Notes under the pieces: generated by a model | Databases searched by the model: none | Told to the model about the DNA's origin: nothing | The model's input: the letters and a program-made list of their open reading frames with translations, nothing else | Program-made: the position numbers and the translations under genes | IMG/VR virus record: IMGVR_UViG_3300030090_004494 | Location: 1-24,515 of that record | Reading direction: 5' to 3' (one strand) | Length of the DNA stretch: 24,515 nucleotides | From: a virus | Part shown: positions 4,498-13,916 of the stretch, piece after piece | Numbering within the stretch: position 1 is the stretch's first letter | Layout of the letters: the number at the start of each line of letters is the position of its first letter

Positions 4498-5376
4498 TCA
4501 AAACCTGCTCGCTGATCCAGCGACAGCATAGACCTGCTGGCTGGCCATGTCACCGATGTCTTTGCAATCTCTCGGCCAGTACCCCGGCGAGCTAGTCAGG
4601 ATGCCCGTGCCCACCAAAAGCTCTTTGAGCTGAGCCTTGCACGCTCGACCCGCTGCATCGTTGTCAGTCAAGATCAGCAGCTCGACCGGGCTTAGTGCTT
4701 CGAGCAGTTTGAGTTGGGCGGCTGAGCACCGAGCACCGAGCAAAGCGACCGATGGAATGTCGTGCTGCCACAGCGTCAGGGTGTCGATGCTGCCCTCGGT
4801 GATGGCGAGCTGGGTGAGGCCGTCCACCTTGGCGGCTTGATGGAACCCGTAGAGCAGTTCGCTGATCTTCAGCCCTCGGGGGTACTTGTATTTCGGCTGA
4901 CCCTCCATCGGCTCAAAGAACCGACGCACCGCACCGAGCGGAGTTCCCCATCGGTCATGCAGCGGGATCATCAAGGCGTCGTCCTCGATGGAGTAGCCGA
5001 GGTCGAAGGCGTCGAGTACCGCTTCGCTCGTGATGCTGCGGTCAGCCCATCGTTCTCGGCTGAGCTTCCAGTAGTCGATCCACGCTGGGTCGAGTTCAGG
5101 CTCAGGCTCCTCGGGAGCGTCAAGCTCTTTGAGCTTACGGCGTAAGTCGGCTGTCGATGTCGTGACAACGAAGTCGGATCGCTCACCCGTGATGTGCTCG
5201 ACCAGCTTGGGGAACGCACCCTTCTCGCCGCAGGCGTAGCAGATGAAGAGCCCTCGCTGGACGTTGATCGAGAAGCTGGCGTCACGCTCATCATGGAACG
5301 GGCAAAGGCACTGCCACTCGTTGCCAGCCCGATTCTTTACCTTGAGGTGAGTTTCAACGAACGAGCGATAGTTCAC
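4498..5376 (-). CDS. dnaG: DnaG-like primase (CHC2 zinc finger plus Toprim)
   Basis: 292 residues, short for a DnaG primase but normal for phage forms. The N-terminal CHC2-type zinc finger has CPFH (C25, H28) and CYAC (C46, C49), used to recognise template DNA. The central region includes PLGAVRRFFEP. The Toprim fold shows AITEGSID (E194) and LILTDNDAAG (D238, D240), the metal-binding acids of primer synthesis. The helicase-binding C-terminal domain of cellular DnaG is missing or reduced. The gene follows the DnaB-like helicase with a 4-nt overlap, so both are made together. It would lay primers for the DnaE-type polymerase at 16449-19121. Confidence 0.9.
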   Translation of the reverse strand: MNYRSFVETHLKVKNRAGNEWQCLCPFHDERDASFSINVQRGLFICYACGEKGAFPKLVEHITGERSDFVVTTSTADLRRKLKELDAPEEPEPELDPAWIDYWKLSRERWADRSITSEAVLDAFDLGYSIEDDALMIPLHDRWGTPLGAVRRFFEPMEGQPKYKYPRGLKISELLYGFHQAAKVDGLTQLAITEGSIDTLTLWQHDIPSVALLGARCSAAQLKLLEALSPVELLILTDNDAAGRACKAQLKELLVGTGILTSSPGYWPRDCKDIGDMASQQVYAVAGSASRF

Positions 5377-6641
5377 GCCAGTTGCTCAAGTTTGTCCTCG
5401 GCCATGATGTCGTTGGCCTCGTCGCCGCTGATCTCGGTGAACGATCCCGAGTTCGGGCGAAACTCGGTGTACCACATCTGGCCATCCATCCCGTGCCGGT
5501 ACTTGGCAAGGTTGAAGCGAATGACGTGGCGGGTCATCTGCTGCATCGTCACCACGCAATCGGCATCCTGACCGATCGCATCGGAGCCGCTGAGATGCTG
5601 AGCGCCGGGCTGATCGACACCGACCGCAGTTCGGTTGATCTGAGCTGCGGCAACGATCGGCACCCGGTACTTCATGGCGATGCCCTTCATCTCTCCCGAG
5701 AGTGCGGCGATCTGCTGCCAGTCACCGGCACCGCCCATCAGGGTGAGGTAGTCGATGAACACGATGTCGGGCTTGTTGCGCTCGATCTGTGCAGCGATGG
5801 TCGCCGGGGAGACTTGTCCCCGAGAGGTGTCGTTGACGATGAGCTTGCCGGTCAAAGTTTCTTTGAGGGTGGAGAGAAACTTTTTGTAACCCACGAGGTC
5901 GAGGCCCTTGCCCGACATGACCTGGCTAGCCGTGAAACTTTCCTGAGCATTCTTGCTTTGCAAGAAAGTGTGGGCACGCATCGCAATCTGCGCTCGGCTC
6001 TGCTCAAGGGCGTCGTACTGAACGGTGGCACCATGAGCGATAGCCGTGGCAGCCATACGGATGAGAGTCCAAGTTTTGCCCTGGCCAAGTCGAGCAGCGA
6101 CGATCCAGTAGTCGCCCTCTTGAGGGCCATTAGTTGCCAAGTCGAGAGTGTTGAAGCCAGTTGGGATTCCGCTCATGCCGGTGCGAGCAGTTCGCTCCTG
6201 ACGACGAGAAACCTCGTTGTAGATTTCTTCCCAGTCATCGAGCACCGATGATTCATTCTGGGCGCCAACGGCATCGCCTTGGATTTCGACCAGTGAAGTT
6301 TGGAGTTCGAGCAAAACTTTGGCTGGGTCATCTCGATCACTAATCGAGTCGATCGAAACGTCGATGGCCTTCACCAAGGAGCGACGAACAAACTCATCTC
6401 GGAGTTCACCAAGGCAGTATTCGACATCATCACTTTTCAGGAGTTGAAACTTTGGGTACTTGCTCTTGAAGAGAGTTTTGGATGGACATGAACGATGTCG
6501 ATCTATGTACCTAGAAATCCAATCCCACTCGTCTGGAAATGATGAAAACCATTTCGGGGTGACCCCATTCAAGATGGGTGAGATGTGATCTTCCTGGCGA
6601 AGAACAGCAGAGATGAAGAGCTGTTCTGATTGCTGACTCAT
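5373..6641 (-). CDS. dnaB: DnaB-like replicative helicase
   Basis: 422 residues from ATG 6641, chosen over earlier frame-open codons because CCAGGAG lies just upstream on the minus strand. The N-terminal helical domain (about 1-125) begins QSEQLFISAVLRQEDHI. The RecA-fold motor (about 155-422) has Walker A ARLGQGKT (183-190), an H1a-like ALEQSR with E213, Walker B DIVFIDY (292-298) and AAQINR with Q334. These are standard DnaB/RepA-family helicase motifs. It would unwind DNA at the phage fork and recruit the primase encoded directly after it. The pair runs opposite to the long rightward operon, implying its own promoter in the 6642-6859 region. Confidence 0.9.
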   Translation of the reverse strand: MSQQSEQLFISAVLRQEDHISPILNGVTPKWFSSFPDEWDWISRYIDRHRSCPSKTLFKSKYPKFQLLKSDDVEYCLGELRDEFVRRSLVKAIDVSIDSISDRDDPAKVLLELQTSLVEIQGDAVGAQNESSVLDDWEEIYNEVSRRQERTARTGMSGIPTGFNTLDLATNGPQEGDYWIVAARLGQGKTWTLIRMAATAIAHGATVQYDALEQSRAQIAMRAHTFLQSKNAQESFTASQVMSGKGLDLVGYKKFLSTLKETLTGKLIVNDTSRGQVSPATIAAQIERNKPDIVFIDYLTLMGGAGDWQQIAALSGEMKGIAMKYRVPIVAAAQINRTAVGVDQPGAQHLSGSDAIGQDADCVVTMQQMTRHVIRFNLAKYRHGMDGQMWYTEFRPNSGSFTEISGDEANDIMAEDKLEQLA

Positions 6642-6859
6642 GGCTTCTCCTGGCTGGTTGCCGCCTTGGCGGCTACAGCTCTGGGCGTTGGGAAATGGGA
6701 CGGTATCACACGTCGTCAAGCCAATGTGTGCATCCTCTCGGAACTTACGTCAGTTTGCTCTACATAAAATCAAGGTAAGGCTATTGCCGCTAATTGGTTA
6801 CGATTAGATTCCAAGGCTGTTGCTTGCCGCACCAATCGTTACCAATGCCTGTACCTTTG
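6642..6859. other. Divergent leader and likely promoter region
   Basis: No gene is seen. It separates the minus-strand helicase from the rightward operon, so promoters for both directions are expected here or just beyond. On the minus strand the helicase leader contains a perfect 14-nt inverted repeat (GCCGCC/GGCGGC, 6660-6673), 18 nt before the start codon. AT-richer patches such as TACATAAAAT (6761-6770) could hold a -10 element, but I found no -35 partner at 16-18 nt, so no promoter is called. Confidence 0.4.
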
Positions 6860-7114
6860 TAAGTGAGCCTCCCGCTCATAGCCAGGGAGGACGGACCGCA
6901 AGGGGCGCCACGGCGCAACCCACGGGAGGGACCGGGTGGCACCGGCCGAGGCAGGGGCAGCAGCCGCCTGCCGAGTTGGGGCCTCGCTTTCGGGCGGGGC
7001 TGGACAAGCGATCGGGGGTGCCCGATCACCAGCGGAGCGGATCACCCGTAGCCGTGCGTGCGGCAGTGAGAACTAGGACCTGTGGCTGGCTTTGCCAGTT
7101 GAGGAAACCTACTG
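6860..7114 (+). ncRNA. Candidate structured non-coding RNA ahead of the hammerhead
   Basis: About 255 nt without a coding frame that looks real, but crowded with stable hairpins. TGAGC/GCTCA (6864-6878) has a CTCCC loop that can pair with GGGAG 6885-6889 as a pseudoknot. CC-GCAA-GG (6896-6903) has a GNRA loop. GCGC/GCGC spans 6905-6916. GGCAGG+GGC / GCC+CCTGCC (6950-6972) gives nine pairs. GCCTCGC/GCGGGGC (6981-7000) gives seven pairs. GATCGGG/CCCGATC (7010-7027) gives seven pairs with a GGTG loop. GCCG/CGGC spans 7051-7064. CTGGC/GCCAG (7086-7098) has a TTT loop. I looked for RNase P RNA, tmRNA, group I and group II signatures and saw none. Boundaries are estimates; the 3' end would be set by ribozyme cleavage after 7120. 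Confidence 0.6.
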
Positions 7115-7171
7115 GTCGTCCACCCCTAATGCCGGGGTGCTGAGGATGGCGCATGGCAGCGCCGAAACGAC
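7115..7171 (+). ncRNA. Type III hammerhead ribozyme
   Basis: All elements are present in order. Stem III 5' strand is GTCGT (7115-7119), followed by cleavage-site C17 at 7120. Stem I is CACCCC/GGGGTG (7121-7126 with 7134-7139), closed by a 7-nt loop. The core CTGAGGA (7140-7146) fits C3-U4-G5-A6-N7-G8-A9. One extra U sits at 7147. Stem II is GGCGC/GCGCC (7148-7152 with 7159-7163), loop ATGGCA. The core GAA follows (7164-7166), then stem III 3' strand ACGAC (7167-7171), giving A15.1-U16.1. Loop I TGCC (7130-7133) is complementary to loop II GGCA (7155-7158), the kind of loop-loop contact that speeds natural hammerheads. An extra base between A9 and stem II is known in some natural examples. 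The Shine-Dalgarno AGGAGG (7172-7177) follows stem III directly. Confidence 0.9.
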
Positions 7172-7183
7172 AGGAGGAAAGAT

Positions 7184-7420
7184 TTGAGCGCACACCAACG
7201 CTATCTCGAAGCCCCATACGAAGCCGCTGCTCGTGACGAGCTGGCGTTCGAGTATTGGGAAGAGAACATCGCACTGGCCGATTACAACCGTCTCGTAGAG
7301 GGCGGTGTAGTTGAGGCCGACGAAGATAACGAGCCGCTCCGCTTTGAGGACTGGCTCGGCAGCCGTCAGGGCCATCAAAACTTTGAGTCCTGGCTGGACG
7401 ACGAGGAGGCAGGGATATGA
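7184..7420 (+). CDS. Acidic hypothetical protein, first gene of the rightward operon
   Basis: 78 residues from TTG 7184; AGGAGG at 7172-7177 with 6-nt spacing fixes this unusual start. The protein is acidic and mostly helical, with aromatic residues in FEYWEENIALADYN and two related-looking W-containing segments, FEDWLGS and FESWLDDE. No family is recognised. Its leader contains the hammerhead ribozyme, so its message would have a self-generated 5'-hydroxyl end 63 nt before the start codon. The stop overlaps the next start (ATGA). First position in the operon and small acidic nature would fit an early host-interaction protein, but this is inference. Confidence 0.75.
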   Translation: MSAHQRYLEAPYEAAARDELAFEYWEENIALADYNRLVEGGVVEADEDNEPLRFEDWLGSRQGHQNFESWLDDEEAGI

Positions 7421-7530
7421 GCCGCCTCACCGACTTCGCTGCCCTCACTGCCCTGGCCTTTGTCGCCTGGGTGGTCGCCACTCGGTTCCATGTCTTCTAT
7501 GACTCGGCCGTCTGCTGGACCTCGTGCTGA
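7417..7530 (+). CDS. 37-residue membrane micro-protein
   Basis: The frame runs ATG 7417 to TGA 7530. It overlaps the previous stop by 4 nt and the next start by 1 nt (TGATG). It starts MSRLTDFAAL and has one hydrophobic helix (about residues 7-22, ALTALAFVAWVVATRF), then DSAVCWTSC. The tight coupling on both sides and the clear membrane segment support a real gene. Upstream, AGGAGGCAGGGAT (7403-7415) offers a good ribosome-binding site. Function unknown. Confidence 0.65.
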   Translation: MSRLTDFAALTALAFVAWVVATRFHVFYDSAVCWTSC

Positions 7531-8966: not shown

Positions 8967-9008
8967 TGCCTGAATGGTTGTACCGAGGTTCGATTCCTCG
9001 GCAGGCAA
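8967..9008 (+). ncRNA. tRNA-like minihelix in the leader of the VWA gene
   Basis: TGCCTG (8967-8972) pairs with CAGGCA (9002-9007) like an acceptor stem. CCGAGG (8983-8988) pairs with CCTCGG (8996-9001) like a T stem around the loop TTCGATT (8989-8995). That loop fits the tRNA consensus T54-T55-C56-R57-A58, flanked by G53-C61. Only 10 nt (8973-8982) link the acceptor strand to the T arm, so the anticodon arm is absent; this is not a decoding tRNA. There is no CCA at the 3' end. It lies between the stop of the AAA+ gene and the start of the VWA gene. Confidence 0.65.
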
Positions 9009-11195: not shown

Positions 11196-11269
11196 GCCTT
11201 GAGCTGGTGCTCCGTGGTTTTTTCCTCCTGTTCTCCCACGGTTGTGCAGTTCGATTCTGCACCAAGGCA
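11196..11269 (+). ncRNA. Compact tRNA-like cloverleaf in a leader
   Basis: Almost every base falls in an arm. The acceptor stem is GCCTTG/CAAGGC (11196-11201 with 11263-11268). A tiny D-like arm is AGC-TGGT-GCT (11202-11211). The middle arm is CCGTGG/CCACGG (11212-11217 with 11236-11241) with an 18-nt pyrimidine-rich loop instead of a 7-nt anticodon loop. After TT comes a T arm, GTGCAG/CTGCAC (11244-11249 with 11257-11262), around TTCGATT. There is no CCA and no normal anticodon loop, so it is not a working tRNA; a degenerate tRNA or a tRNA mimic fits better. It shares the T-loop and the acceptor-then-GA pattern with the element at 8967-9008. Confidence 0.65.
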
Positions 11270-13825: not shown

Positions 13826-13853
13826 TAGCCAACGAGACGGCCTAGCCCCCCAA

Positions 13854-13916
13854 GGGTGCTGTTAGTAGAAGGTTTTTTTGTTTCTCCTTCCCTTCTACTG
13901 GCAGCACCCTTTTTTT
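13854..13916 (+). terminator. Strong intrinsic terminator
   Basis: GGGTGCTG (13854-13861) pairs with CAGCACCC (13902-13909). After a TT/GG internal mismatch, AGTAGAAGG (13864-13872) pairs with CCTTCTACT (13891-13899). That makes 17 pairs around an 18-nt T-rich loop, followed by seven Ts (13910-13916). It is by far the strongest terminator shape in the window. It stands inside the rightward operon, only 26 nt before the next start codon, so it may act as an attenuator. Confidence 0.85.

Follow-up and report, generated by a model that had tools for sequence, protein, structure and literature searches.

Hammerhead ribozymes flanking phage genes were reported in 2011, and one of them lies 13 nt before the start codon of a phage helicase gene (PMC3088659). 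In natural hammerheads, a loop pseudoknot of at least four pairs is common, and loop–loop complementarity speeds these ribozymes; variants with other insertions in the core also exist and are frequently slow, one of them having low activity (PMC3088659). Large phage RNAs encoded near tRNAs are likewise already known (PMC12286853). The locus described here lies in an IMG/VR record of 24,515 nt (24.5 kb; hereafter the window) from a phage related to actinophages, and brings together a hammerhead-like element and a leader located in a divergent gap of the phage. We assign a probability of roughly 0.5 to the reading that this leader (positions 6860–7120, plus strand) is a structured non-coding RNA that is cut from its operon by the hammerhead, at a place where relatives have tRNA-like elements instead. 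The 5′ limit of the leader is nominal, and its 3′ end is the predicted cut.

The leftward side of the gap is occupied by a DnaB-like helicase gene (5373–6641) with a primase gene below it. The rightward genes comprise an ORF of 78 amino acids with a TTG start (7184–7420, plus strand), for which a search found no relatives, an ORF at 7524 with a weak winged-helix likeness, a MoxR-type AAA ATPase gene (7793) and a VWA protein gene (9044). This rightward small-ORF/MoxR operon is probably an early operon. A simple sigma-70 scan revealed no promoter-like site upstream of the leader. The window helicase shares 52–71% identity with its IMG/VR relatives and ∼40% identity with helicases of Gordonia and Brevibacterium phages, and an IMG/VR helicase fragment with 96% identity stops short of the leader region.

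The hammerhead-like element spans positions 7115–7171 of the plus strand and consists of three helices that surround the core, with stem III open as in a type III hammerhead. Stem III (7115–7119/7167–7171), stem I (7121–7126/7134–7139) and stem II (7148–7152/7159–7163) contain 5, 6 and 5 bp, respectively, as checked pair by pair. The core includes CUGAGGA (7140–7146), in agreement with the CUGANGA pattern, and GAAA (7164–7167), in agreement with GAA(A). The A15.1–U16.1 pair is formed by A7167 and U7119, and the UH cut site is GUC (7118–7120). The predicted cut falls between C7120 and C7121, so that the leader ends exactly at the hammerhead cut, as the preliminary description had stated. Stem II does not directly follow A9; an extra base, U7147, is located between them and could be a sequencing error, and because of this base the site is named hammerhead-like. 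UGCC of loop I (7130–7133) is complementary to GGCA of loop II (7155–7158), which would permit a 4-bp contact. A hammerhead descriptor that allows at most one inserted base matches once in the window and has no match in first-order Markov sequence totalling 73.5 Mb. The Rfam hammerhead models RF00008, RF02276 and RF00163 give no match at this site. The element probably derives from a working ribozyme, and cleavage after C7120 is likely.

Immediately 3′ of stem III is a Shine–Dalgarno sequence, AGGAGG (7172–7177, plus strand). This proximity bears on a reading in which the hammerhead alone is of consequence: the upstream 260 nt would be an ordinary GC-rich untranslated leader, and cleavage would set the 5′ end of the mRNA or free the ribosome site. 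The latter effect is conceivable because additional CUG/CAG and CCU/AGG pairs could lengthen stem III across the Shine–Dalgarno sequence (7108–7177, plus strand). The lengthened stem gains 4.3 kcal/mol over the core alone (−28.9 versus −24.6 kcal/mol) and, when the transcript is short, hides the site; phage hammerheads near start codons also have precedent (PMC3088659). The total folding energy of the leader, which is ordinary, also fits such a reading. However, the masking is gone in longer transcripts, and both the short-range hairpin excess of the leader and the long RNAs in the same slot of relatives, described below, argue for a leader that is more than a spacer; we regard the hammerhead acting by itself as the less likely reading, but as a serious one. 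The idea that stem III locks the ribosome site was rejected on the grounds that masking varies with transcript length.

Four ORFs cross the leader, two on the plus strand (6820–7143 and 6863–7051) and two on the minus strand (6790–7029 and 7026–7481). None of them has a match in PHROG, and the two that were also checked against Pfam belong to no family. A protein-coding reading of 6860–7120 was rejected on this basis, the preliminary claim that the stretch holds no credible gene is borne out by these empty searches, and the leader region is probably non-coding as far as its sequence allows testing.

The predicted fold of the leader contains seven hairpins with stems of at least 4 bp, compared with a mean of 3.0 in shuffled sequences, and seven were reached in 0 of 150 shuffles. 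When pairs are limited to a span of at most 30 nt, the folding energy of the leader differs from that of shuffles with a z-score of −3.1; two coding controls lack the short-range hairpin excess. The total folding energy is unremarkable (z = −0.67; 45 of 200 shuffles equally good) because the stretch is ∼70% GC. The at least eight stable hairpins first proposed are therefore better described as an excess of short-range hairpins, seven in the fold, in an RNA of ordinary overall stability. Three hairpins of the plus strand are seen in all folds, namely GGCAGG...CCUGCC (6950–6972), a hairpin around GCCUCGC...GCGGGGC (6979–7001) and GAUCGGG/CCCGAUC with seven perfect pairs (7010–7027). The predicted fold also includes CUGGC-UUU-GCCAG (7086–7098, plus strand) and, as the first hairpin, CCUCCC/GGGAGG (6863–6890, plus strand), which could alternatively adopt an H-type pseudoknot by complementarity. 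In this pseudoknot, which had been suggested earlier, CUCCC (6869–6873) and GGGAG (6885–6889) are indeed exactly complementary and the other stem is UGAGC/GCUCA, but the zero-nucleotide connectors make the arrangement sterically marginal, and in the predicted fold the bases 6869–6873 and 6885–6889 pair with each other as a plain hairpin instead. For the reported GNRA loop, the candidate is a GNRA-like GCAA (6898–6901), but it is weak, would close on 2 bp and is absent from the predicted fold.

The two strands fold about equally well, and the hairpin excess therefore does not tell which of them matters. Equal folding would also be expected of a DNA-level element, such as an origin or operator region, in which inverted repeats mimic RNA hairpins and the hammerhead-like fold has decayed. 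The divergent gap adjoins genes for a replicative helicase and a primase, and the hammerhead core is imperfect, both of which accord with such an element. Nevertheless, the hammerhead stems are all intact and the loops are complementary, features that decay does not favour, and the RNAs in the same place of Gordonia phages vary by compensatory pairs. A DNA element is thus highly improbable.

The Rfam comparison proposed in the preliminary description, including GOLLD and ROOL, was run at gathering and permissive thresholds and with single-family searches, and no known RNA class matches the window leader. The GOLLD (RF02032) and ROOL (RF03087) covariance models give no match in the window; the ROOL model is silent in control genomes too. 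ARAGORN and Rfam detect no tRNA or tmRNA fold in 6860–7120, consistent with the earlier statement that tmRNA signatures are absent. A nucleotide search with the leader against phage records gave nothing beyond 35 nt within recT, a match at chance level, and an nhmmer search of all loci collected returned no match. In local alignments with the leaders of relatives (11 comparisons), L056 is the single one to exceed its shuffles (z = 3.65), and a second aligner places the match differently, so that homology of the window leader to the L015/L056 leader is no more than suggestive. None of the relatives sought by MoxR alone, by the 78-amino-acid ORF or by hammerhead DNA patterns shares the window leader, and the hammerhead stems are absent by eye from the 27 DNA-pattern matches. 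A genome-contig scan with the helicase yielded two loci only. With no convincing homologue of the 260 nt among these searches, the window leader is at most a putative conserved RNA class in its own right.

The genomic slot of the leader is more widely used. Twenty-nine helicase relatives were fetched, and their upstream gaps were read where long enough. Long gaps without an evident gene, as judged by reading rather than by a gene finder, precede the rightward genes in L055, L059, L060, L063, L064, L065, L007/L050, L015/L056 and L021. The leader RNAs of these relatives and the window leader occupy the same slot between the helicase gene and the rightward operon, and those of the relatives are longer (400–900 nt). 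The relatives that are closest by helicase (L002, L004, L005, L006 and L011) have no such leader RNA.

Most of the relatives' gaps terminate, before the first gene, in an element composed of an acceptor stem and a T-arm. In L055, L059, L060, L063 and L064, this element is ∼50–60 nt long, too short for full D and anticodon arms, whereas the L007 gap ends in a larger tRNA-like element and the L015 gap in a tmRNA-like element (Rfam tmRNA, 64.7 bits). The short elements, or minihelices (L055 8072–8121, L059 14865–14914, L060 8499–8551, L063 10156–10098 and L064 9895–9953), share a conserved GCCAGTG...CACTGGC, change from GCAGG/CCTGC to TCGGG/CCTGA in the T-stem and score under the Rfam tRNA cut-off. 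The tmRNA match (L015 1781–1862, minus strand, equivalent to L056 5913–5991) covers 82 nt only, too few to accommodate a tag reading frame. Among 14 tRNA-like elements cut out by hand, both sides change at 11 of the 12 positions and 98% of the cells pair, a figure that is inflated because the descriptor itself selected for pairing and still yields 5.8 matches per set on a Markov control. Independent support for the tRNA-like elements is confined to their shared genomic position and to the T-stem changes within the homologous L055–L064 group.

Close to their 5′ ends, the leaders of several relatives carry a CCTTGA(A/C)AACTGAAG-like motif, which we take to resemble boxA of rRNA leaders. This common motif, together with the position of the window leader where a probable early operon begins, would suit a leader that acts in cis on RNA polymerase, through HK022 put-like or boxA-type antitermination, and is then trimmed by the hammerhead. 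The boxA-like motif is not significant in the window, however, and transcription control of this kind appears improbable. A different motif, CGCCGCCACC, repeats ahead of several successive genes in L020 (upstream region) and is also found 3′ of the leaders in L055, L059, L060, L063 and L021. L145 870–970 holds a non-coding element that is also present ahead of the MoxR-type gene in L004 and L005; its outer stem, CCACTGCTGG/CCAGCAGTGG, has 10 bp, and its inner hairpin shows compensation, with CTACG-GAGAG-CGTAG in L005 versus CTTGG-GAGAG-CCAAG in L145.

Further elements are dispersed in the rightward part of the window. Between the MoxR-type and VWA genes, just ahead of the VWA ribosome site, positions 8967–9008 form a minimal tRNA-like element with an acceptor stem and a T-arm (TTCGATT) separated by 10 nt, which is a possible RNase P/RNase Z site. 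Another tRNA-like element (11196–11269) precedes the next small ORF and displays, in its anticodon-like arm, a large pyrimidine-rich loop, TTTTTTCCTCCTGTTCTC, that includes an anti-Shine–Dalgarno-like CCTCCT; akin pyrimidine-rich arms are observed at L184 2588–2668 and L200 2235–2307. Inside the rightward operon, a long terminator-like hairpin (13850–13915; GGGTGCTG...CAGCACCC) with a pyrimidine-rich loop is followed by a T run. Two other MoxR-bearing phages contain type II hammerheads above the Rfam cut-off (L194 3269–3331 and L240 about 304–365), each immediately 5′ of the ribosome site of an ORF, which counts in favour of a leader cut by a hammerhead in the window. The L194 operon also has a long gap that terminates in a tRNA-like element (2921–2993).

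Isolated phages offer a closer view of the slot. Gordonia phages of the Chidiebere group have a conserved, mostly unannotated gap of ∼0.8–1 kb beside the helicase region (L124 1880–2750, corresponding to phage positions 55984–56854, and also L125–L129), and this gap, used as an 871-base query, is 86–100% identical across the group. A ∼360-nt part of it contains six compensatory pairs among four sequences, which are effectively two main variants. By its sequence variation, the Chidiebere-group gap likely encodes a large RNA with structure. In GMA6 there is an RNA-sized gap that is similar in part. Because these isolated Gordonia phages (the Chidiebere group and GMA6) carry position-matched leader RNAs, the class is accessible to ordinary RNA sequencing of infected cells.

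In the favoured reading of a leader RNA cut by the hammerhead, the stretch would serve the rightward operon as a structured 5′ leader that encodes no protein. After transcription, the type III hammerhead-like element, placed where the leader meets the genes, would cut after C7120 and generate two products, a ∼260-nt leader RNA with a cyclic-phosphate 3′ end and an mRNA that starts with a 5′-OH at C7121 and has its Shine–Dalgarno sequence 51 nt downstream of the new 5′ end. The window leader would correspond in position to the relatives' longer leader RNAs, of which it may be a reduced form or a replacement; many of those have tRNA-like ends that could be cut by host RNase P and RNase Z. The transcription start, the cleavage, the release of a stable RNA and the common descent with the relatives' RNAs are steps that we infer. 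The non-coding RNA with a ribozyme-made 3′ end, as first proposed, thus stands in part: the hairpin excess, the hammerhead-like fold and the position-matched leaders favour it, but the lack of a convincing homologue, U7147 in the core, the missing Rfam match, the ordinary total folding energy and the absence of the RNA from the relatives closest by helicase do not.

We lean towards a leader that is made for its own sake as an RNA because the relatives spend 400–900 nt on theirs; antitermination, action in trans and a GOLLD/ROOL-like RNA assembly are candidate roles. A broader proposal, put forward only tentatively, is a class of leader RNAs that are freed by interchangeable processing elements, mostly minimal or larger tRNA-like or tmRNA-like elements and, in the window, a hammerhead. 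The window RNA would then be a small member in which a ribozyme has replaced the RNase P-type end. If true, a phage hammerhead would gain a defined task, the formation of a leader RNA's 3′ end, and would be linked to tRNA-like elements to which this task may fall in relatives. Large phage RNAs of a probably new group would then stand alongside GOLLD and ROOL.

The arrangement, initially proposed as new, is less so: hammerheads located between phage genes and close to start codons have been described (PMC3088659). Their occurrence together with minimal tRNA-like ends in a single genomic slot was not found in the open-access literature searched. The HK022 put RNA (PMC9378689) is not described as self-cleaving, and a sequence relation to the window leader is not claimed; like the window leader, it is a structured RNA that opens a phage early operon. 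Phage theta (HDV-like) ribozymes (PMC10879173) resemble the window element as self-cleaving RNAs tied to RNA processing in phage genomes, but they have another fold and are linked to tRNAs, in contrast to the leader before a protein gene in the window. GOLLD and ROOL (PMC12286853) are non-coding, multi-hairpin phage RNAs near tRNAs, and the relatives' leaders similarly end in tRNA-like elements, although the window RNA is far shorter and is matched by neither model. Phage type III hammerheads (PMC3088659) share with the window element the three stems, CUGANGA, GAAA, GUC, a possible loop I–loop II pairing and a location between phage genes near a ribosome site. The window element differs from known type III hammerheads in the extra U before stem II, in the silence of the Rfam models and in the ∼260-nt structured leader directly upstream.
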